From NCBI RefSeq assembly GCF_020921035.1, contig NC_063156.1, forward strand, positions 2,914,001-2,978,000: DNA of 64,000 nucleotides, written 5' to 3'. Numbering within the stretch: the stretch's first letter is position 1; every line of letters begins with the position of its first letter. Position numbers and translations under genes: made by a program. The notes below the pieces were generated by a model that saw only the letters and a list, made by a program, of their open reading frames with translations, ran no database searches and had not been told where the DNA came from. This document shows, in pieces, positions 11,894 to 61,678 of the stretch. The DNA comes from Rhodamnia argentea. Lineage: Eukaryota > Streptophyta > Magnoliopsida > Myrtales > Myrtaceae.

Positions 11894-11939
11894 AAGAGGT
11901 GACGAGAAATTTTCATGAAAAACATATCCACATATCATA

Positions 11940-13330
11940 ACAATCAAATAACATGTAAAGGGCATGAAAGAAACAAAATTTTCAAAGAATTTCGTCATGT
12001 AAATGGAACGATCGTACATATTAAAATGATTTGAATTACAATGAAAATTTTATATGTGATATATCTAGATAGTACAAACAACTTTTATCAAGAGAGTTCT
12101 ACCATTAAAATCTTTAAAAAAATCATAAAAAATCGAGAAGCAGCAAAGGTTAGATCAGAACGGAACAACCTGCGGGATTCAAACAAAATTTCAAATTTTG
12201 AATTCATAATACAAGGCACTTTTGCCATAGCAAACAATCTCGGTTTCACACGCAAAAAATACCGTTGAAAGGATCTGGATCTCAGCTACGAAATTCACTT
12301 TTTGAATTTTTTCATATTCATGTTGGATTGGTACCGCATAATCCAAATACTAAAATATGTCAGAAAATAGAAAAATACATGAATAATAGCAAATTACAAA
12401 TTCAAACCGCGAACTTCATAAATGCATTAGGCAGACCAAATGATACTAATTTTTGGACGATCTATGTATGAAATCGAAATTCTCAAAGTGATCTATGAAT
12501 ATCTAGTAGAAAGTGAAAGCGATTCGATCATCCTGGACATGCAAAATCGAGTTACAAACTCGAGATGCTCTCCGATATGAAAATGTAAAACATTAAAAGC
12601 ATTCATCAAATCATTATCGACTACTATAATAATAATCAAGCAATATGCAAAGGGCAGGAAAGAAACAAAATTTTCAAAGAATTTCGTCCTCTTAATGAAA
12701 CGATCATACCGATTAAAATGATTTGGATTGCAATGAAAATTTTATATGTGATAGATTTAGATGGTACGAATAACTTTTATCAACAGAGTTCTACCATTAA
12801 AATCTTTAAAAAAATCATCAAAAAATCGAGAAGCAGCAAAGGTCAAATCAGAACAAAACAACTTTTGAGATTCAAGCAGAAATTTCAGATTTTGGATTCA
12901 TAATACGAGGCACTTTTGCCATAGCAAACAATCTCCGTTTTACACGCAAAAATTACTGTTGAAAATATATGGATCTTAGCTACGAAATTCGTTTTATGAA
13001 TTTTTTCAAATTCGTGCTGGATTGGTACCGCATTATTCGAATATTAAAATATGTTTGAAAACAAAAAAATACATGAACAATAGCATATTACATATTCAAA
13101 TCGCGAACTTCATGAATGCATTAGATAGACCAAATGATACTAATTTTTGGACAATCTATATATGAAATCGAAGCTCTTGAAATAATCTACGAATATCTAC
13201 TAAAAAGTGAGAGCAGATTCGATCGCCTAAACATGCAAAATCGAGTTGCAAAATTGAGTTACAAACTCGAGATGCACTCCGATATGAAAATGTAAAACAT
13301 TAAAAACATTCACCAAATCATTATCGATTA
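11940..13330. repeat. 692-bp sequence duplicated in tandem
   Basis: Two direct copies with a period of about 692 bp (about 11940-12631 and 12632-13330). Anchors are ATGAAAATTTTATATGTGAT at 12041 and 12733, and GAGTTACAAACTCGAGATGC near 12548 and 13250. The copies are about 90% alike by eye with small indels. The short frames beginning MKILYVI in both copies are not supported as genes. The first copy begins close to the right target duplication of the solo LTR. Confidence 0.8.
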
Positions 13331-14640
13331 TTATAATCATGTGAAATCAACTATAAGGATTGAAGTTTGTAGATCCTATACCAACTTCATTACTTAAAAT
13401 CGATAATGATCTAGCGAGCCGAACGACGAAGCTCTTCAAGATAATTTTGCAGTACATGGGCGTTGATTCATCCGATGGACCAAGCTCAAGTTTAGATGAG
13501 TAGATTAAGTTAGTGGGGAAATTGCGTAAGAAAGCATAGATATCTCAGCTCAATGATGAGCTTTTTGCTCAAGTTTCAAAACAAACACGAAATAATCCCA
13601 ACAGGTATAAAGTTTGTTCTCTCACACAAGTTTAAATATTGTTTTGCTTTATTGTTTTTCCTTTAGCTAAATTGCCAAGTTTAAACTATTCCAGGTAATG
13701 TTTAATTAATGCTTGGGAGCTAATGTACTTATGCGCATTATCAATGCCTCATAACAGGGACATTAGTGGTTTTAGAGAAGACATTGCTTACTGCTGCACA
13801 TTTTTTTTTTTGTTTTGTTGCCACAACCACATATTTACTAACATAGATAAGATAGGTCAATGACTCCTAATGGTCGTGGGACAAAAGAAACCTATCTAAT
13901 CGAATTCAAGTTCATGTGATCAATTTAGTTCCAAATTTTTTAATTATATCAATTCATTCTTGAACTTTTTTTTAAAATAAGTCTCGTATCTTTTATCTAT
14001 TTACGAATTCAACTCTAAATCTCCAACACAAATTATGTCTCAAATTCAACTTTGTAAATCCCTTCAAGAAATCCACAAAAAGAAAAAAAAAAAATAGGGT
14101 GCAGAAGTCGCAGGATGAATATGTGAATGACATCAATCCATGATGACAACAAATATCATTGTTTTGAATGTGGGATGTTTGTAATGACGAGTCCTTCTAG
14201 ATTTGCCAAGTAAGGAAATGAGATATCTATCCACGACCAAGTCAGATTATCCGTCAAATGTCATTTGGTAAAATTAAATATGATTAGACGGTAGAGAATA
14301 CCTAACCACTCTCACATTGACTTCTCAATTTCTCTGGGGGCGATCTACCTTCGTGTGAGAATTAAGTTCTAATATGTGGTTTAAAGTATTTAATCAACAT
14401 CTAAAGCTAGAATAGTGCCATAAGTGCTAATTTCCGGGCTTTCTATTTCGCACTTTAAGCAATGAATATGACCTTTTGACCGAAAAAAAGAAAAGAAATA
14501 CGCAGTAAAAAGAAAGCTAAATACGCTCTCGGTTCATTCCATGCCGTTGTATTTAAAATCTGACCGCTTCTTTTTGTTGTTGCCAAAGTATTGTAATTTC
14601 GATTCATTGTGCGAACATGGCAAATCCGGACCCAAGAGCA
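13331..14640. other. intergenic, AT-rich
   Basis: No gene or clear element is seen. It has several A/T homopolymers (about 13800 and 14082) and the distal upstream region of the RPL9 gene. Confidence 0.5.
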
Positions 14641-41885: not shown

Positions 41886-44800
41886 GTAATGTTTTTGGTG
41901 ATTTCCTTGTTCTTTTTATATAGCAAGAAATGAGAGATCATGTGTTTTCTTAATAGTCACGTATGAACGCCATTTCTTCTTCTTCGCCATAAATTAACGA
42001 GAGCTTTCGGTGTGAGGGATGAAATTACAAATTTACTAGCAGGCGTATGTCAATACCTTCAATAGCGACCCCTCTCATATGATGTCATAAGAGCTTTTAC
42101 CATATTTGAAGTTTTTCTCGTCTTTTAATAATTAAGATTTTCTTAAATTTGATAAACAATGATGAAATCATTTTCGAATTGAGAGTAGCTTTTTTTTTGT
42201 CTGTCCAATCTCTAATTTAAGTAGCACCGACATGCGACACGCGACACGACACGACACGCCGACACATCATAAAAAAAATGGAGAATTCCGACACGTTGAG
42301 ACACGGTGAATAATAAATGTATATTTTTATATATGCATATAAATGATCAATTTTATGATTATTGCAATCACATTAATTTAATTCAAATTCACAAATAAAT
42401 AAATAATTTAAAAAAGTTCTAGAATTGATCCCACATCGGTGGTGAGGGGAGAGAGACAAAAGTAAAATGACTTGATTAATGAGTCTGACATTGGTTGTGT
42501 GAGAGAGAGAAAACACGAAGTCTCTTTAAAAAGTCGGGGATGAGACTTGGAGGCTTACAAGTTGAAAGAAGGAGTCATACATTGGTTGCTTAGTGAGGAT
42601 AACAAGTAAGATGGCTCTCTAAGATGAAGTCTCTACTTTGATGCTTAAAAGTCTCTTGTCTCGACTTTTTGGCTAAGATGAAGTCTCTATTCTCTCATTT
42701 GTTTGGCCAACATGAAGCATGTAGTTTAAAATTAATGTTTTTAGTGAAAGGCAAACCGGTATCTGAGCTCGCGGAGTTGAACCCCATGCCTCCGATACTA
42801 GCATCCCTTTATCATAAAGGAACAAATGGGCTACTTTTATTAGCTCTAACTAATTGATAGTTATTTCGACTACATAATTCACCAATGAAGGAGACTGAGT
42901 CGTGAAATCAATAAAAAGCAACATTAATAGACATGACAAACATCGTCAGCTGTAATTATGATAAACAAACATTTAGTGCGGATGTAACCAAGCATTATTT
43001 TGCAGCGAAGAAATGTTTACATAAACTAAAACAACTTTTGGCAAATGAAAAATCTTCCTTCATGTAAGGATTTACAGATCTAATAAGAGATTACAAAATA
43101 ATAAACGTAACAGAATGGCACATGAACATGTGAGGATTTATAGATCTAATAGGATATTACAAAATAAGAAAGATTTAAATTTGAAAAGACGGAGATTTAA
43201 GAAATCGCATCGTTATCATCTCAATTGCTTTTGGCAATATCAATCCGCCTTTTAGTTTATCTTGTACGATTGGGATTCATCTGAATAAAATACACGGAGC
43301 TTTCACGAAGTTTATTTGTCAAAAGTTGAGTTGAAGTTACTTTAGGAATGACATAGTTAGTGCAAGATTCATTATTGAGAATTTGAGAGCAGTAAGGAAT
43401 GCCATTCTATAGCTTGTGAGTCCGTCAACTATTTCATAGATGGAATTCGCCAGGCATTTGGAATTCGACCTAAATCGAAGAGATTGTCATTTCACCGTTA
43501 CGTACTCATTTTTTCCGCCATGTTTCTTCTCCATATTTAGACTAGGAGCATTGTAGTTTCACGACCTCGAGGACTCCATCCAATCCATGCGACAAAGTCT
43601 ATTTCTGGTGGAACAAACTCAAATTAAAATATAATTTCCAATACAAGAGATCGGTGCCGAAGCAAAGGTATGAGCTGTACTCTATGCTAGCTGCTAGCTT
43701 CTTCGCTCTCCGGGAAGTGGCTCTTCTCTTAGGCTTCTCTGTAGGCCCGACCAACATTTTGACCGGCGGAGACTGAGTGGGCCAATTGATGATGCCATAG
43801 TCCAATTGGCTTTCACGGTGAAATCCAATTGGACCCTTTGGCCCATGGGGTGGTCCTATTGCATTGTCACATCATGGCCGGGCATATTTTTGCATGCTTA
43901 TATCGTATTGTGATGAAACATTTTGGTGGTTGACTTTTCATTTGTCGGCAGATTCTTAGCATAGATTAAAATTTAATCCTCTGATCGTGCATATAAATGA
44001 AAAAGATAAGAATAAAAACGATGAATGTACGGTAGAAGTGCTAGCACTGGCAATCCATTAGCATGTGTAGGCAACTTCGCAACTCGGTTGATCCTTGGAT
44101 TCTTGGTTTTGCCCCAACCATATTGGACTCTTGGCCGGTTTATACTTTCAAACTCGTATTCTCAAGCGTCGTTGTGGGTAGCATTTGTGTAATTGTGGCA
44201 TTCTTGTGGTTAATTAGCATGGTTATCTTCATTCTCGGCGTTCAATCACATTTTCATTAGAATGATCGAAATGATTGATAAGAATTAGGAAGTATAAAAG
44301 TTTAGTACTTTGACATGCGAAAAATATCCGGTTACGGAAATTAATACCAAACACAATATCCTTCACCTAACGAATGAGCATGTAAGTTAAACAATATAAT
44401 CGCGACATTATCATAATGCGGGTGTAAAGATTAATTCTAACATGAAACTCTAATCCGTGAATATCGTGGGTACATGTATAAGCACAAAGAGGGTGGATCA
44501 TACATCGCCAACGAGGACATTGAGAGAGCCCTCTCTCTCTCTCTCTCTCTCTCTCTCAACATCTCTGCCGGTCGCTCCTTGCACCCGATTTCAACCTTGG
44601 CGGTCGGATCTTGTGCGAACTCGACAACTTCGGCGGCCAAGTAGATGGTTACTTGGGCGGTCTCGGGAACGTTGCTACTAGACTTGAGTTTTAGAAATGA
44701 CAAAATGAGTTTAGAACCCATATTTAAAGGGCGTGAGTCATAAACGGATTAGTTAATAACTTAATGGGCCATAAATTGATCATAAATGGGTTAGTTGTCG

Positions 44801-45249
44801 CCGGTCTCCGCCAGTCGTCGGTCCTTGGTAGTCGGCTGGTTGCCATTGTCGCTCGCCAATGGTCGTCCGGCCGTCGGTCGTTGGAATTAGAAGAAAATAA
44901 AGAAAGGAAAAAAAAAAAAAAATGAAAAATGAGAAAAAATAAAAAAGCCAGAATTTTCTTTTATAATTATGAAAAAATTGTCCACATGAAAATTTATAAC
45001 AAACAAGTTTTTCTAAATTGAATTTATTATTGAAGTGTTTTAACAATATGGATCGAGTCGAGTATGGGTTACAAGATTTTAACTATATGAAAATGAGTCA
45101 AAACGGATTAAATGAGTCAATATAGGTCAAACCATTTTTTACCCGATCCGATGCACCCGTTTGACAGGTATACTGAGGCTACTGGTCTGATGATGTGCCG
45201 GACCGCTTGAGTTTATAGTACTAGGGGGCATTTGGGGGTAAAGGTAGAA
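41886..45249. other. gene-poor repeat-rich intergenic region
   Basis: No gene is recognised. It contains a CGACACG-rich short tandem tract (42229-42270) and an LTR/TRIM-like stretch at 42425-42665 beginning near GATCCCACATCGGTGG. There is a 63-bp near-tandem repeat at 43068-43172 (AGGATTTACAGATCTAATA). A CT run lies at 44530-44557. A probable TE end at 44700-45175 has CCGATGCACCCGTTTGACAG. Frames at 43599-43805 (-) and 44063-44260 (+, hydrophobic) have no recognisable homology. Confidence 0.45.
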
Positions 45250-48200
45250 TTTTAGTAAATGAGATGCCTTGCTTTTGCGAAAGGCGATGATGATGCAAGT
45301 GGCAAGATAAAAGAACAATCTTTCATACCAGACATGTAATAACTACACCAAGTATGAAATTTATCTTTCGAACCAAGCATGCAATAGTTATATTAAGTCA
45401 GGGATCTATTTTTCATACAAATGCAATAGGTTTATGACTTTTTTAGTAGTCTCCCTTTTTCAGGCCTTTGAATAATTCTGATTTCAACAGCTATTACTTA
45501 TAATTTGCAATCCTTTGAGCTTGCCTTGCTCAACCTCCTGCTCTCTCTCTTTCTTTTGCATTACCACCATAATTGCCCGTATTATTATTTGACAGATAAA
45601 CAAAAAACTGATATGCTTTGCTTTTGTGGAATGCAATGATGATGCAAGTGGAAAGATAAAATGACAATCCTTCGTATCAGACATACCATAACTACATTAA
45701 GCAATGAACCTATCCTTCGTACCAATGCGATAGTGTCATGACGTTTTTAGTAGTTTTCCCCCTATTTTAGGCCTTTGAATACTTCTGATTTCTCCGGCTG
45801 TTGCTTATAATCTGCGATCCTTTAAGCTTGCCTTGTTCACCCTCCCACTCTTTTTGTCACTTTTTCATTACCACCATAATTGCCCTTACTATTCCTTGAT
45901 AGACGAACAAAAAAATGAGATGACTTGCTTTTGCGGAAGGCAATGACGATGCAAGCTGCAAGATAAAAGGACAATCCGTCGCACCAAACATGCCAAAATT
46001 ACATTAATTAAGAAATTTATCCTTCAGACCAGACATGCAGTAACTACATTAAGTAAGGGATTTATCATTCGTCCCAATGCAATAGGTTAAAGACTTTATT
46101 GGTAGATCCTCTCCCCCATTGTAAGCCTTTGAATACTTTTAATTTCTCCAGCTATTGCTTATTATTTGCGATCCTTTCAGCTTGCCTTGCTCAACCTCCC
46201 CCTCTCTCTGTCTCTTTTGCATAACCACCATACTTGTCCTTATTATACCTTGACAGATTGAAAAAAAAATGAGATCCCTTGCTTTTACGGAACGCAATGA
46301 TGATGCAAGTGGCAAGATCAAAGGACAATCCTTCGTACCAGACATGCCATAGCTACATTAAGGAAGAGATTTATCCTTCGGACCAGACATGTCATAGCTA
46401 CCTTATGTAATGGCTCTATGTTTCATACCAATGCAATAGGTTAAAGATGTTTTTGGTAATTTTCCCTCCGTTTTACGCCTTTGAATACTTCTGATTTCTC
46501 CAGCCATTGCTTATAATCTACTATCCTTTTAGCTCGCATTGCTCAACCTCGCTCTCTTTGTTTGTTTTCCATTACCACCATAATTTCCCTTACTATTCTT
46601 TAACAGAGGGAAAAAAAAAAAAAAAAAGAGATGCCTTGTTTTTGCGGAAGCCGATGATAATGCAACTGGCAAGATAAAAGGACAATGCTTCGTACCAGAC
46701 ATGCCATTACTACATCAAGTAAGGGATTTATCGTTCGGACCAGTCATGCCATAACTACATTAAGTAAGGGATTTATTGTTTGTACCAATACAATAGGTTA
46801 AAAGACATTTTTACTAGTTTTCCGCTCGTGTAGGCCTTTCAATACTTCTGAGTTCTCCAACTATAACTTATAATCTGCGAACCATTGAGCTTGCCTTGCT
46901 CAACCTCCCGCTCTTTTTGTCTCTTTTCCATTACGACCACAATTTCCCTTACTATTCTTTGACCAATGTCAGAAAAAAATTAGATGCCTTGCTTTGCGGA
47001 AGGCAATTATGATGCAAGTGGCAAATAAATGGACAATCCTTCGTACCAGACATGTAATAACTACATTAAGTAAGAAATTTATCCTTCGAACCAGACATGC
47101 CATAAGTACATTAAGTGAGGGATCTATCATTCGTACCAATGCAACAGGTTTAAGACTTTTTTAGTAGTCCCCCCTTTTAGGCCTTTGAATACTTCTGATT
47201 TCTCCAGCTATTGCTTATAATTTGAGATCCTTTGAGCTTCCATTGTTCAACCTCCTGCTCTCTCTATCTCTTTTGCATTATCACCATAATTGCCTGTACA
47301 ATTCTTTGACATATAAACAAAAGAACTGAGATGCCTTGCTTTTGCGGAAGGCAATGATGATGCAAGTGGCAAGATGAAAGGACAATCCTTCGAATCATAC
47401 ATGCTATAACTACATTAAGTAAGAGATTTATTCTTCAGACCATATATGCCATAACTACATTAAGAAATGGATCTATCCTTCGTACTAATGGAATAGGTTA
47501 AAGACGTTTTTGGTAGTTTCCCCCTATTTTAGGCCTTTTAATACTTCTAATTTCTCCATCCATTGCTTATAATTTGTGATCCTTTGAGCTTGCCTTCCTC
47601 AACCTCCCGCTCTTTCTGTCTCTTTTTCATTACAATAATAATTTCCCTTACTATTTTTTGACAGATGAACAAAAAAATAAAAAAATGAGATGCCTTGCTT
47701 TTGCAAAAGGTGATGATGATGCAAGTCGCAATATAAAAGGACAATCTCTCGTATCATACATGCCATAACTACATTAATTAAGAAATTTATCCTTAGGACT
47801 AGACATGCAATAACTACATTAAGTGAGGGATCTATCTTTTGTCCCAATGCAATAGGTTAAAGATGTTTTTGGTAGTTTTCCCATTTAGGCCTTTCAATAC
47901 TTCTGATTTCTCCAGCTATTACTTATTATTTGCGATCGTTTGAGCTCACCTTGCTCAACGTCCAGCTCTTTTTATCTCTTTTGCATTACCACCATAATTG
48001 CCTTCATTATTCTTTGATAGATGAACAAAAAATGAGATGCTCTACTTTTGCGGAAGGCGATGATGATGCAAGTTGTAAGATAAAAGGACAATCCTTCATA
48101 CCAGACATTCCATGATACATTAAGCAAGAGATTTATCCTTCGGACCAAACATGCAATAACTACATTAAGTAAGGGATCTATTCTTCGTACCAATGCAATT

Positions 48201-49295
48201 GGTTAAAGATTTTTGGCAGTTTCCCTCCCTTTTCAGGCTTCGAATACTTCTGACTTCTGCTATTGCTTAGTATCTGCGATCATTTGAGCTCGCCTTGCTC
48301 AACCTCTGGCTCTCTTTATTTCTTTTGCATTACCACCATAATTGCCCTTATTATTCTTTGACAGATGAACAAAAAATGAGATGCCTTACTTTTGCGGAAG
48401 GTGATGATGATGCAAGTTGCAAGATAAAAGGACAATCCTTCGTACTAGACATTCCATAATACATTAAGCAAGAGATTTATCCTTCGGACCAAACATGCAA
48501 TAACTACATTAAGTAAGGGATCTATTCTTCATACCACTGCATTAAAGAATTTTTTTGGTAGTTTCCCTCTAATTTTAGGCTTCGAATACTTCTGATGTCT
48601 TCGACTATTGCTTATAATCTGGGATCCTTTGAGCTTGCCTTGCTCAGCCTTCCGCTTTCTATATCTCTTTTCCATTACTACCATAATTGCCCTTACTATT
48701 CTTTGACATATGAAAAAAAAAAAAAAACTTCGATGTCTTGCTTTTGCAAGGAGATGATGATGCTAGTGGCAATATAAAAAGGACAATCCTTCCTATCAGA
48801 CATGCCATAATTACATTAAGTAAGATATTCATACTTTGAACTTGACTTGCCATAGCTACATCAGTAATGGATCTATCCTTCATACCAATGCACTATGTGA
48901 AAGACGTTTTTGGTAGTTCCCCCCTTTTTAGGCCTTTGAATACTTTTGATTTGTTCGAAAAAAAAAAAAACTTCTGATTGTCCTGCTATTGCTTATAATC
49001 TACGATAAATTGTGCTTGCCTTGCTCAACCTCCCGCTCTTTGTCTCTTTTTCATTACCACCATAATTGCCCTTACTATTCTTTGATAGATGAACAAAAAA
49101 GCTGAGATGCCTTGCTTTTGTGGGGGAGGGGGGGAGTTGTGGTGGGCAAGATGAAAGGATAATCATTTGTACCAGACCTGCCATAACTATATTAAATAAG
49201 GGATCTATCCGTCGCACTTGACATGCCATAACTAAATTAAGTAAGGGATCTATCCTTGGTATCAAACATGCTATAAGTACTTTTAGGTAAGGAAT
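45250..49295 (+). repeat. about 12-copy tandem array of ~350-bp units, gene-derived
   Basis: The anchor GAGATGCCTTGCTTTTG recurs, with small changes, at about 45261, 45610, 45917, 46270, 46628, 46981, 47328, 47687, 48034, 48378, 48730 and 49104, giving a spacing near 350 bp. Each unit contains two parts. Part one (about 210 bp) runs from GGCCTTTGAATACTTCTGAT through CTTGCTCAACCTCC and ATTCTTTGACAGATGAACAA to GGCGATGATGATGCAAGTGG. Part two (about 140 bp) is built from roughly 45-bp subrepeats of the type CAGACATGCCATAACTACAT with TAAGTAAGGGATTTATCC. Part one is closely similar, in the same orientation, to 60876-61085 inside the Cys-rich gene. Copies differ by point changes and small indels. 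Short frames within it are repeats, not genes. Confidence 0.88.
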
Positions 49296-50580
49296 TTTAT
49301 ATCCGCTCAAGTCACACGTTGGAAATATTATGGCAGAAGCCGATCAAGTTGAACTCGACTTGTGGCTATAAATATGCCAAAATTTGAGTCCTAGGGACAC
49401 CAGGGCAATTCATTCAAATTCACAGACATAGTCACACACACACGGAGATGGATGTGACGCTGTCTATAGATGAACCGGAGAGTTGGGAGCAGAGAAGGCG
49501 GAGATTGGAAGCGATAATGGGGTGCGACCCAGGCCAGCGACAGCACGATCCCGCAGAATCGGACAAGATTATGGATCCCCGGCTATTCTCGATCGCAAAG
49601 GAAGGGGACATTGATAAGTTCATCAAAGCCCTGGAGGATCATTGTGCCAAGGAAAGAGTGTCATTGCCCGTCCTTCTCGGGCTACGCAGCCCCTCCAAGA
49701 ATACACTGCTTCACGCTGCGGCAAGTATGCTAAAAAGGGTGTGACCATGCATTTCAAAGTTCTATATCTTTGGCAGTCAAATTAATCTGACATGAATGGA
49801 AAACTGAGAGTGATGATATTGTCAGAGCAGTCATCGAGTTTGTCCCTCGGCACTTGATCTCCTGTCAGAACTCCAGAGGAGAGACGCCGCTGCACATTGC
49901 GGTCAGAGCCGGGAAAACCGGTGCGGTGGAGCTTCTACTTCCCCGGGGGAACCCAACATGCACTGACCACAGCGGCAACTCCCCTCTGCACGATGCCGTG
50001 AGGAATCGCCGTTATGACGTGATCCATCAGCTCCTGAGTGAAGACCCCAATCCGCTGTATCGTCACGATAAGGGAAGCAAGTCCCCATGGTGCCTAGCGG
50101 TCGAAACCGGGGACTTGGAGGTTCTCAGGATCTTGTTGGAAGGGCCAAACGAGGACGAAGACCAGAGGAGATCAGAGAGTGGAAGTGTCTTCGGCATGTC
50201 GCCGGTTCATTATGTACCAGAAAATGGATAAACCGTACCCTACTGTCGTGCTCTCTCGCTTGCTCTTTCGTTCATCCCCATATGACTAAATTCTTGCCTT
50301 GGATTTAGATATGCTGACCATGATGTGGGCAAAGAAGCCGTGGCTATTTGAATTGAAAGATGCAGGAGGCGGCACTCCCCTCCACTACGCAGCGTTCACG
50401 AATTATTTCGATGGAGTCACGTTCTTGAAAGAGAAATTGCCAACAAGCGCCATGGAGCAAGACCGCAAGGACGGCTATCTTCCTATCCACGTCGCTTGCA
50501 TGATGAATCGTGTCAAGATCGTCGACGAGCTACTTGGGCAATGGCTGGACCCCGCAAAGTTTCTAACTAAGCTGGGACAA

Positions 50581-51208
50581 TAGGGGTGAGCGGTTCCGGG
50601 TTCCTTATAGGTTCCATCTGGAACCTGGAACTTACTGCCCTGAACAGGTTCCTCATTTTTTGGAACCTGGAACCTGGAACCTGGAACCTACTCGTCATAC
50701 CTTGGAACCTAGAACCTACCCCGTCACGGGTTCTAGGGTTGGTTCCAGGATACCCGAGAACCTATCAATTTCTTTTATTTTTTCATTTTTAGTTAAGCAA
50801 AATGAGAGTGAACGCTACAACATTTAAGAGAAAGTAGAAGTGAGTGATTTTAGGTTACATACAGGCTACATTTAGAACATGAAACTAATCCACCGCAACA
50901 CGTTTATCATTTTTTGGAGCCTGAAACCTAAAAAATTGTTTGGCTCCAAATTATACACTCATCATCGGATACCATAGAACATTGTATGATCATGCAAAAA
51001 TATATACCAAGAAAAATATAAAAATTTATTTCGGAATCTATGGTCCAGGTTCCGGGTAGTGGAACATGGAACCTATCTGTTGGAATAGGTTCCTTAATTT
51101 TTGGAACTTGGAACCTACCTTGTATATCTTGGAACCTGGAACCGGAGCGAATCCTACGGGTTTCGGTTCCGGGTTCTCGGTTCTACCCTGGAACCATGCT
51201 CACCCCTA
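50581..51208. mobile_element. hAT-like MITE in ankyrin exon
   Basis: 628 bp with perfect 11-bp terminal inverted repeats TAGGGGTGAGC and GCTCACCCCTA. It is flanked by a perfect 8-bp target duplication TGGGACAA (50573-50580 and 51209-51216). Eight-bp duplications and TAGGGGTG-type ends are hallmarks of hAT elements. The inside is rich in GGAACCTGGAACC and GGTTCCGGGTTC repeats near both ends. No transposase. The host reading frame (LGQ then NILHVSAQCG) resumes directly after the second duplication copy. Confidence 0.93.
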
Positions 51209-51294
51209 TGGGACAAAACATTCTTCACGTCTCGGCGCAGTGCGGATGCCTTGGAACCGTCGGATACATATTGAATAGACCCGATTCTGATCAC

Positions 51295-53013
51295 GGGCTT
51301 TTTATCAAAATAGGATTAAAAAAATAAATTTATTAAAATAGGTTTTAATTTTTTTTTTACCACTTTGAGTGTGGCTCAACGCCTAAGCCTTTGTTTTGTT
51401 TTTTTTTGTATTTTGTATTTTTTTACGTTTTTATAACATTCATTTTATTTATAATTTTTTTTCTTTTGAAGCTTATTTTTATAACATAATTATCAATAAT
51501 TAATTAAGATATATAATTAATAAATAATTTTATATTTATATAATTAATTAAAAATATTCATAAAATAAAAGTGGTAAGATATATAAAAAAATATGAGATT
51601 GTCATAATAGATAACAATCGTTTACCTCAAACTACCGAGGGAGAGCACGTACTAAATGAGGAGTTCAAACTGTCGAGAGAAAGCACCGAATAAGGAGGCC
51701 GACTTTGCTTTTATCTCAAATTCTACAATATAAAAAATTCAGAAATTAATTTAAACATTACGAAAATATTAACAATAAAATAAAAACATAGTACTAACAA
51801 CCTACAATAGCATCAATTTACATAAAAATGTAATACTTAATTGAAAAATTATTTATTACCCATAAAGGCGCCCGAGGTGAGGGGGATCTCCTTTAATGAG
51901 CAATTGAGGCTGATGAAAAAAAAGTATCGAGTTGGAAAAATGAATGACAGCAACGAAAGGGCTCTACTTTTAAGGCGAAGGAAAGTGCGAGGGAGAGTGC
52001 ATGGCGAGGAAGAGGGTTTTTGAGTGAGGCGAGGGAGAGCCTTTGGGGAGGAGCTTCTGAGGCAAGGGAGAGTGCGAGGCGAGGGAGAGAGTTTCTGCCG
52101 AAAAGCTTCTGAGGCGAAGAGTGTGGGAGACAGAGCTGAAGAGCTTCTTAGGGGTGAGCATGGGCCGGGTCCAAATCTAGACCCCGAAACGGACCTCGTT
52201 ATAATCGGTTCCCAGTTTTTAGAACCGACCATGTTTGTCTTAGAACTTGTTTTAGAACCGATCCTATTTTTCGGTCCAAGTCCAGGTCTATCCGAAAACT
52301 TGTTTTTATTTTTTTTAATCAAAATAATATGAGTATCGATGAAATAAACAATAAAAATTACAATTCACCAAAAGCAACAGTCCAAAATATAATAGATAAT
52401 ACGACAAGATGGGAAGAAACAGAGGATCGAGAGGAGGTGAGGGACGTGAGGCAACCAAAGGACAAACGATGATGGACTAGACACTAAGGTTTTTTTTAAA
52501 AAAAAAAAAACTAAAAACCAGTTCTAAAATCGGTCCAAGTGGGTCTTCACCTAGAACAGGAAATCGCACCAATTTCAACCGGTTCTCAAAAATTAGAACC
52601 GATTCCCGGACCGGTTTAAGCAGGAACCGATTCCCGGACCGGTTTAAGCGAGAACCGATTCCCGTTCCAGTTTTTCGGGTGGGCCGATCCGGGTTTCGGG
52701 TAAACCCGGTCTAGTTGCACACCCCTAGAGCTTCTGACTGGGGTAAAAATGAGGGAAGCAGAGCCTTATGCTCTGTAGCGCCTGTGAAGGCACTGCAGCA
52801 CCTTTAATCGGGTGTTGTAGCACCTTTGCAGCGCCTTTAATTGGGCGCTGTAGCGCCCGTGGGCGAGCGAGGGGACCCCCTCGCTCGGCAGGTTTACTGC
52901 CGAGTTGGCCCCGCTCAACACTCTAACTACCGAGCCACACCCAAAGTAATAAATTTTTTTTAACCTATTTTGGTAAGTTTATTTTTTTTTTGTCCTATTT
53001 TGGAAAAAAGCCC
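51295..53013. mobile_element. MULE-like element in ankyrin exon
   Basis: 1719 bp. The ends are inverted copies: the left GGGCTTTTTATCAAAATAGG matches the complement of the right end CCTATTTTGGAAAAAAGCCC with few changes, and the inner ATTAAAATAGGTT pairs with AACCTATTTTGGT. Flanking 9-bp duplications are TCTGATCAC (51286-51294) and TCCGATCAC (53014-53022), 8 of 9 identical, which fits Mutator-type insertion. No transposase frame is seen. It contains a nested hAT-like element at 52149-52727 and a GAGGCGAGGGAGAG-type repetitive stretch at 52020-52140. The host reading frame resumes after it with LINARDVEGSTPL. Confidence 0.88.
52149..52727. mobile_element. hAT-like MITE nested in the MULE
   Basis: 579 bp. 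The ends TAGGGGTGAGCA and TGCACACCCCTA are inverted with one mismatch. It is flanked by a perfect 8-bp target duplication GAGCTTCT (52141-52148 and 52728-52735). The inside has repeated GGACCGGTTTAAGC and GAACCGATTCCCG units. It shares terminal sequence type with the element at 50581 but is clearly diverged inside. Confidence 0.92.
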
Positions 53014-53992
53014 TCCGATCACCTTATAAATGCAAGAGATGTAGAAGGGAGTACGCCTCTGCACTTGGCCGCGTTGCGTTGCCAACCTACCGTCGTGGAT
53101 CTTGCAAGAGACGGAAGAGTTGATCTTGGGCTGCTTGATGATGATAACATGACGGCTCTCGACCTGGTAGAGCTGGACATGAAAAATTGAAAACATTTGA
53201 TAATTTACTCTGCAAGGTACAGCCTTTTACACTTTTCTCACTGGTGATCATGCATCGCAAATTGTTATACCAATCAGAGACGGAAATAGATTATATAATT
53301 AGTGGCCAAAATCATAATGTTTTGATTTCTTCTTCTATTATTTGACTCATTGCTGGCAGGAGTTAATGTGGTTGATTTTGTTTTATGTTGGAACACCGAG
53401 AAGTAGAGAATTAGCTATCTGTGAGTCAACCGGTCGGAGCTCACGGAAACGATTGGAACCACCGAAACTGGACGTGTTCAAGGACCATGTGAGTACTCTC
53501 CCGGTCGTGGCAGCGCTCATTGCTTCCGTCACTTTTGCTGCGGGAGGATATAATGGTTCTGGCCCAGATGCCAGAAGCTCCATATTGCTCCACAAAGCCA
53601 TGTGCACCGTCTTTGTGATTGGCAACTCCATAGCTACGTATAGCTCGATCACGGCGATCGCGATGCTCTTCTGGACACTATATAATGACCCTCACGTGAC
53701 GGTGTTTGCCATTTACGGAGCAACGATCCTATCGTGGGTAGCTCTTGTCGCAATGCCTTTCGTATTCATGGCAGGCGTCTCCATGACCGTAACCAAATTC
53801 AGATGGCTTTCGAGTTTTGTCCTGGTCTCTGGATCCTTCGTCCTCTGCATTTCCCTGAGTCTCGTCGTGGTGTCTTCTTTCCGGGCTGCGCGGGGACTTC
53901 CTCCCTTTAATTTGTACCGGGTAGCAATTGCTCCTGGGCCTTCAGGGATAGCGAGGAGGCGGAGGGCAAGGATTGGGACTGTGGGACGTTAA

Positions 53993-60338: not shown

Positions 60339-60780
60339 GTGAGTGGCTTTGTTCTGGGTTCGATCAGCTTTTTTCATGTGATTTATGGGCTTTTTGCTGG
60401 TCATGGTGATGTCGTTCGGCTGTAGAATTTGTTGGTTCTTCTTCTTGCCTTGTTGGTCTGAAGAGGGTCTTCATTTTTGTCGTGTATGTTGTCCGTGCGA
60501 TGCCTTTTGGGCATCGTTTGCCGGGGAATGATTCTGATCTGCCAGTTGCATGCTCGCGTGGTGTAGATCTGGTGGAGAAATAGCTAGTGTTCCTAATTCT
60601 GGGTTGGTGATAGAGGAGGATTATATGCTTTATGAGACCGGGTCTGCGAGAATTAACCATTGAATTGGAGCTGCGATTGTGGTTTGAGGACGACTGACCC
60701 ATCTTCTTTTTACCCTCTCTGAGTCTCTCTCCATGGAGAAATTAAGATTTTGACCGAATGTCAGTGTGGTCAGCTTACAG

Positions 60781-60783
<3 letters not shown>

Positions 60784-60814
<31 letters not shown>
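60784..60814. repeat. CT microsatellite in leader intron
   Basis: (CT)n run of about 31 bases, about 60 bases upstream of the segment that is homologous to the 45-49 kb array. Confidence 0.9.
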
Positions 60815-60817
<3 letters not shown>

Positions 60818-60875
60818 ATCAATGGTCTCCAGTATGAACATACAGAGCAGCTGGGACCTGTATTTGACTTTTTTG

Positions 60876-61085
60876 GCCTTTGAATAATTCTGTTTTTCTC
60901 CGGCTATTGCTCATAATCTGCGATCCTTTGAGCTTGCCCTGCTTATTCTCCCACCCTCTCTGTCTCTTTTCCGTTACCTCCTTTATTGCCCATATTATAT
61001 TTTGATAGATGAACAAAGCACTGAGATGCCTTGAGGTTGTGGAAGGCGATGATGATGCAAGTGGTGAAAGATAAAACGATAATAC
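60876..61085 (+). repeat. single copy of the array unit's 210-bp part, inside the gene
   Basis: Closely similar, in the same order and orientation, to part one of every unit of the 45.25-49.3 kb array. Shared blocks are GGCCTTTGAATAATTCTG, TGCGATCCTTTGAGCTTGCC, CTCTGTCTCTTTTCC, GATAGATGAACAAA, TGAGATGCCTTG and GGCGATGATGATGCAAGTGG. It looks like the 3' end of an intron plus an exon start (TTTTGATAG then ATGAACAAAGC). A small frame, 61009-61074 (21 codons before the stop, containing VVEGDDDASGE), begins exactly at this putative acceptor and may be an upstream ORF. The 45-bp subrepeats of the array are absent here. Confidence 0.8.
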
Positions 61086-61240
61086 CTGAAGAATTTGACA
61101 GCTTTCTACACCATTTACCCTTTTGTAGAAAGTTTGATCATTTTTTCGTGATTTGTTGGGCTCTGCAGAACATTCCTGGGGAAGGTGGTAGCGTTTGGAA
61201 TATAGTCTTGGAGTTGAGAAGTTACTAGTCGAAGGAAGCA

Positions 61241-61678
61241 ATGGAGGTATGTGGCAAATCCGTCGTAGCAGGGGCTGGAAATATTATTTATCTGTCAACT
61301 ATTTTAGGCCGAGATGGGCCTATTCCAGTCCACAAATGCGATCGGAAATGCCAAAACGAACATGTGTGTGGAAACATGTACCTTTGTAAACTGACAGGAC
61401 TGACCCACATCTGTGACAAGAATTGTAACCAGAGGATTTTGTATGATAACCATAGTTCACTTTGCCTAGCAAGCGGCAAGATTTTCCCTCTTACACCAAC
61501 TGAGGAACAGGCTGTGAGAGGCGTCCGTAGGAAGCTCGATGCTGAAAGTTCTTCCTCTGAAAGCTGTGCTTTTAAGCGCAGGCGTGATGCACAGTTTCAT
61601 CCTTCTCCATTTGAGAGATCCTTCTCTGCTGTCAGTCCTATCTGCAGCCAAGTCGGAGAGGGGATGGACATGAGCTAG
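61241..61678 (+). CDS. uncharacterised Cys-rich plant protein
   Basis: 145 residues from MEVCGKSVVAGAG; the function is not recognised. The central part looks like a metal-binding module. Residues 30-74 carry regularly spaced His and Cys: VHKCDRKCQNEHVCGNMYLC, then LTGLTHICDKNCNQR and NHSSLC. After it come TPTEEQAVRGVRRKL and a basic stretch KRRRD that could act in nuclear targeting, then a Ser/Pro-rich tail. The codon pattern and intact frame with a typical spliced leader upstream support a real gene. An acceptor (CTCTGCAG then AACATTCC) at about 61169 would begin the last exon. Upstream exons could extend the protein, since a small frame begins at 61009, so the true start is uncertain. The 3' end is the TAG at 61676. 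Confidence 0.65.
   Translation: MEVCGKSVVAGAGNIIYLSTILGRDGPIPVHKCDRKCQNEHVCGNMYLCKLTGLTHICDKNCNQRILYDNHSSLCLASGKIFPLTPTEEQAVRGVRRKLDAESSSSESCAFKRRRDAQFHPSPFERSFSAVSPICSQVGEGMDMS

Follow-up and report, generated by a model that had tools for sequence, protein, structure and literature searches.

The window, the whole 64-kb stretch of DNA analysed here, carries an old composite tandem array whose unit joins a segment also found upstream of a Cys-rich reading frame 12 kb away to a short tandem repeat of 45 bp. We tentatively favour the gene side as the seed of this array, at a little less than an even chance. The fuller account, in which a leader-intron segment 12 kb away and a local 45-bp repeat seeded it together, with donor and product within 16 kb, is put forward more guardedly, as a possibility somewhat below even. 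The array (45257-49297, 4.04 kb) comprises one truncated, ten complete and one terminal unit, copies of a single unit set head to tail as in any tandem repeat array. Its parts, and the related segment on the gene side, are as follows.

45257-45463, + strand: U0, truncated first unit, with the 3' end of the gene-like part and two 45-mers
45464-48931, + strand: U1-U10, complete units; U1 of 307 bp with one 45-mer, U2-U10 of 342-357 bp with two each
48932-49297, + strand: U11, terminal unit, the most divergent, with three 45-mers at its end
45667-45711, + strand: 45-bp subrepeat, an example, one of 24 in the array
60870-61083, + strand: gene-side copy of the common segment (BLAST), without 45-mers

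The units U1 to U11 start at 45464, 45771, 46125, 46477, 46834, 47181, 47533, 47889, 48236, 48578 and 48932, and nine of the ten complete ones measure 342-357 bp, the remaining one being 307 bp long. TRF reported a period of 352 in 10.2 copies at 45667-49265, with the 45-bp subrepeats inside, and in a second row a period of 307 at 45412-46026. The sequence-only reading had counted about 12 units of ~350 bp, and TRF and BLAST agree with it (one truncated, ten complete and one terminal unit). From its GCCTTTGAAT start, a unit runs through the gene-like part (~205 bp), 45-mer 1 and 45-mer 2, which are followed by an incomplete, degenerate third 45-mer and then by the spacer. The 24 45-mers are distributed as one in U1, two in each of ten units and three in U11. 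The truncated U0 is closest to U5 (86%, E 3.7e-64).

When 60876-61085 was compared with the window by BLAST, 12 matches were found in the array, all in the same orientation. Eleven units matched at 73.0-80.3% identity (E 7.5e-30 to 2.2e-49) and the truncated first unit over 55 bp; the query was covered over ~200-210 bp in nine of the 11 unit matches, over 189 bp in unit 5 and over 147 bp in unit 11. Thus the match of some 210 bp per unit to 60876-61085 in the same orientation, as first read from the sequence, holds for 11 units. A unit dimer aligned to 60701-61250 scored 284, against a top score of 48 among 200 single-base shuffles, for which one unit was used in place of the dimer. Outside the array, the gene copy is the sole copy of the segment that BLAST found within the 64-kb window. 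Scanned viral contigs and prokaryote genomes, collections without plants and therefore of little information here, yielded no relatives; two stretches in viral contigs that fitted a peptide pattern encode no relative.

The rest of the unit was described earlier as 45-bp subrepeats that the gene lacks, and both subrepeat scoring and blastn-short bear this out, with a spacer in addition. The 45-mers score 49-78 in the array, against a best of 14 on the gene side (60-62 kb) and of 19 at 30-42 kb, and a 45-mer trimer found no match in the window outside the array at E<=1 (blastn-short). In nine of 11 units the homology to the gene ends 2-5 bp into the first 45-mer, and in U4 and U6 the gene alignment continues 33 and 30 bp into the 45-mer region; all 11 boundary alignments have one gene copy in common and hence are not independent. 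These results support a composite unit, in which a gene-like segment is joined to a short tandem repeat. Directly beyond the segment, the homology test gave P=0.05 on the 5' side (P=0.02 for the nearest 60 bases, which hold GAC, a T-run and GG, and P=0.33 for the whole upstream stretch) and P=0.353 on the 3' side (P=0.043 when the 45-mer was compared with 61084-61300); given the number of tests, all uncorrected, the low values are suggestive at most of homology there. Four comparisons of the array flanks with the gene (300 shuffles each) gave uncorrected P values of 0.45, 0.80, 0.037 and 0.99, with no clear further gene sequence.

On the gene side, the segment lies upstream of a small reading frame, within what may be an intron of the 5' leader.

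61241-61675, + strand: Cys-rich small reading frame, without a Pfam match at E<=1
60339-61168, + strand: possible 5'-leader intron enclosing the gene-side copy, with donor TG|GTGAGT and acceptor CTGCAG

A scan with a general plant splice-site consensus found four donors (60266, 60339 and 60760 at 6/8, 61247 at 7/8) and 14 possible acceptors, among which 61128 and 61168 fit best and equally well (3/3). The leader-intron model is tentative because the best donor, 61247, falls inside the reading frame. The segment could sit wholly within a predicted leader intron at 60339-61168. The earlier proposal that it spans an intron end plus an exon start gains no support from the same consensus, since the acceptor inside the common segment (61008) fits at only 1/3, weaker than 61128 and 61168. 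A short reading frame within the gene copy likewise had no Pfam match at E<=1.

Distances and trees were computed for the common part with U0 left out, as it has only part of the segment. The array is old: its units are on average 17% apart and largely unhomogenised. The mean distance was 0.173 among the 11 units and 0.219 between gene and units (K2P 0.199 and 0.261), a difference of 0.045 with a 95% confidence interval of 0.004-0.087 by column bootstrap. Measured against the unit consensus, the units lie at 0.085-0.148 (leave-one-out) and the gene at 0.151. The split between gene and units is probably older than the amplification of the units. Aligning the units with the gene copy to build a tree, as the sequence-only reading had envisaged, gave a near star-like topology in which none of the nine inner branches was starred, with a bootstrap that did not stabilise; the pairs U8/U9 (93/94) and U1/U6 (92/87) were grouped, and no supported branch placed the gene relative to the units. 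As a test of polarity the tree was set aside for this reason. The 45-mers in position 1 are 0.230 away from those in position 2, both within and between units, and like positions differ by 0.193 and 0.186 (the third 45-mer of U11 left out); because unlike positions are farther apart than like ones, the duplication of the subrepeat appears somewhat older than the amplification of the unit. The homogenisation by concerted evolution that a strict definition of a satellite demands was not seen (mean distance 0.173, near star-like tree). We do not file the array as a true satellite because its units are unhomogenised, and the "satellite birth" of the earlier reading overstates the case.

How the array grew is recorded faintly in the relationships among its units. 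Neighbouring units are scarcely closer than others (0.188 vs. 0.197), and a Mantel test against position gave P=0.028 with U11 and 0.185 without it. After re-phasing, some later copying is evident in the pairs V0/V5 (96/96, the sole starred branch) and V8/V9 (93/96). Similarity was highest at a lag of five units (P=0.015, rising to 0.084 when the choice among lags 1-7 is allowed for; the last re-phased unit, V11, left out). V1 is nearer V10 than V6, and among the best three partners of V3 the only lag-5 partner is V8, in third place. Taken together, this gives only a hint of block duplication of units five apart. The pairs at this lag that are closer than their mean distances predict are V0/V5, V1/V6 and V2/V7 (45260-46268 vs. 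46979-48031).

If the array was seeded from the gene side, the non-coding segment that now occupies 60870-61083 would have been copied to a site directly upstream of the ankyrin gene described below, and the copy would have come to adjoin 45-bp subrepeats there. Amplification would then have raised the composite to about 12 units, with unequal exchange or break-repair duplication as the probable route and perhaps with some multi-unit copying; afterwards the array would have decayed, largely without homogenisation. The homology, the composite structure and the near star-like divergence are what we observed; the gene side as donor and the mechanism of duplication are our inference. In favour of this direction are the composite structure with a homology that stops at the first 45-mer in nine of 11 units, the position of the gene slightly outside the units (0.219 vs. 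0.173) and the same orientation of the two places, 12 kb apart; against it, the gene lacks a supported placement and the array flanks lack clear further gene sequence. The original proposal that a gene segment was copied, joined to a short repeat and amplified is upheld for the composite and for its boundary, whereas the star-like tree does not bear out the gene as the source. Were the array the donor instead, part of one of its units would have been inserted into the leader region of the gene. The authors who described CharSat01-52 prefer such an insertion into non-coding parts of ppfia1 (PMC8210747), and if the array turned over later, the gene copy would now fall outside its units, as it does. 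However, the gene copy is just the part without 45-mers, a coincidence that we estimate at ~3% (11 of 352 positions) if the piece was taken in random phase from an array with a period of 352 bp, and it is not nested among the units, a placement without support; we regard this direction as unlikely. CpG-type differences in the unit-gene alignment, judged by eye as another test of polarity, ran two each way and were discarded.

A third-party source would also account for much of what we observed: a dispersed repeat or non-autonomous transposon could have reached the gene and the array site by independent insertions and then multiplied, together with the 45-mers, at the latter. The near-equal distances of gene and units from one another agree with this, and the low CpG ratio at both places would also suit a repeat at both. 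Repeat pairs are not rare in the window, with 10 other self-match rows at E<=1e-4, four of them more than 1 kb apart, which counts against the gene as donor and for a dispersed element. Transposon-derived tandem repeats are moreover well documented, and transposon sources have been reviewed (PMC9659126). On either side of the gene copy stands ATTTGAC, a direct repeat of 7 bp (60862-60868 and 61093-61099), as a target-site duplication would, but a repeat as good or better occurred at 6.4% of 3000 random positions (P=0.064), and the candidate at the array flanks has 6 bp (P=0.16). By eye, the two ends of the array also share an 8-bp repeat (GAATTTTA), which we disregarded as it overlaps the last 45-mer. 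The region 43500-50500 has 10 inverted-repeat pairs, none with its two arms on opposite sides of the array; around the gene copy, inverted repeats were looked for by eye only. The single copy outside the array in the 64-kb window also tells against a dispersed repeat, although it still allows thousands of copies in a plant genome. We consider a third-party source a real possibility, below an even chance and only a little less likely than seeding from the gene side.

Pfam matches in the window comprise UNC-93, ribosomal L6, Band 7, DUF599, ankyrin and PGG, the last two directly downstream of the array. Such a gene content marks the window as nuclear DNA of a plant.

49448-53989, + strand: ankyrin/PGG gene pieces, with the first ATG ~150 bp past the array

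The ankyrin/PGG reading frame is in pieces, which either introns or decay may explain, and a TATA-like box was seen by eye between it and the array (49367-49374). At 50586-51116, the ankyrin gene region has direct repeats of 58-90 bp that are 71-81% identical and include a TGGAACC run. Elsewhere, a 0.7-kb direct duplication at 11933-13340 has copies 86% identical set end to end, and the inverted repeat pairs 368-538/5301-5478 and 666-733/5114-5184 are 75-76% identical and ~5 kb apart; the two pairs are possibly one dispersed element.

We found no evidence that the array has a function, and it is most likely inert. In favour of a role ahead of the ankyrin gene, as regulatory repeats or as a non-coding RNA, the array ends ~150 bp before the start codon of that gene and, by eye, ~70 bp before the TATA-like box; of four pieces that were folded, one exceeded its shuffles slightly in stability (z -1.96; nine of 200 shuffles as stable). 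The other three folds were no better than shuffles (z +0.93, +1.04 and +2.64), no block within the unit was conserved beyond column shuffles (P=0.41), and Rfam gave no match in the window at gathering scores, so that we hold a functional array to be very improbable. The spacer end was less conserved than column shuffles, partly through gaps, and two long reading frames spanning the array had no Pfam match at E<=0.01. An effect on the ankyrin gene is conceivable, albeit unsupported. C-to-T or G-to-A changes account for 80 of the 224 differences between units and their consensus in the common part. With CpG ratios of 0.51 and 0.57, the array (45253-49303) and the gene segment (60870-61083) both lie below the window (0.79; GC 40.5%), and this composition would suit methylation-linked decay at both places.

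This array belongs to a wider kind, that of tandem arrays sharing a segment with a gene, and the seeding of a tandem repeat from gene sequence is already known. Valeri et al. (2018) reportedly traced the CapA satellite to an intron of NOS1AP. The literature describes satellites as arising by tandem amplification of various sequences, including a single-copy primate intron (PMC7004042), and CapA of New World monkeys as derived from the NOS1AP intron, with duplication and unequal crossing-over proposed (PMC7210261, PMC8210747, PMC7004042). As described there, CapA resembles our array in having a tandem unit homologous to intronic sequence (a predicted intron here), but it is abundant, with ~1.5-kb units, whereas we have ~12 old units of ~350 bp at one known place; its direction is given by species with a single copy only, compared to our array without an outgroup. 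Plant satellites such as PisTR-A grew from short tandem repeats of LTR retrotransposons (PMC7004042, PMC9659126). A short tandem repeat likewise contributes to the longer array here, whereas no retrotransposon was identified near it, without a systematic search. CharSat01-52 of fish has one sequence in the non-coding part of a gene and in tandem arrays, as here, and its authors favour insertion into the gene, whereas our boundary leans the opposite way (PMC8210747). In rice, tandem and ectopic-donor insertions of 10-1000 bp via inaccurate break repair are described (PMC7407515), and by analogy such repair would be a plausible founding mechanism of the array.

If the segment is a dispersed repeat, the array is an ordinary case. 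If the gene is the donor, the locus would preserve in compact form the beginnings of a composite tandem repeat, with the donor, the subrepeat that was added and the resulting array all inside 16 kb; the array apparently was never large, and it would bear on why some arrays become satellites and others do not.
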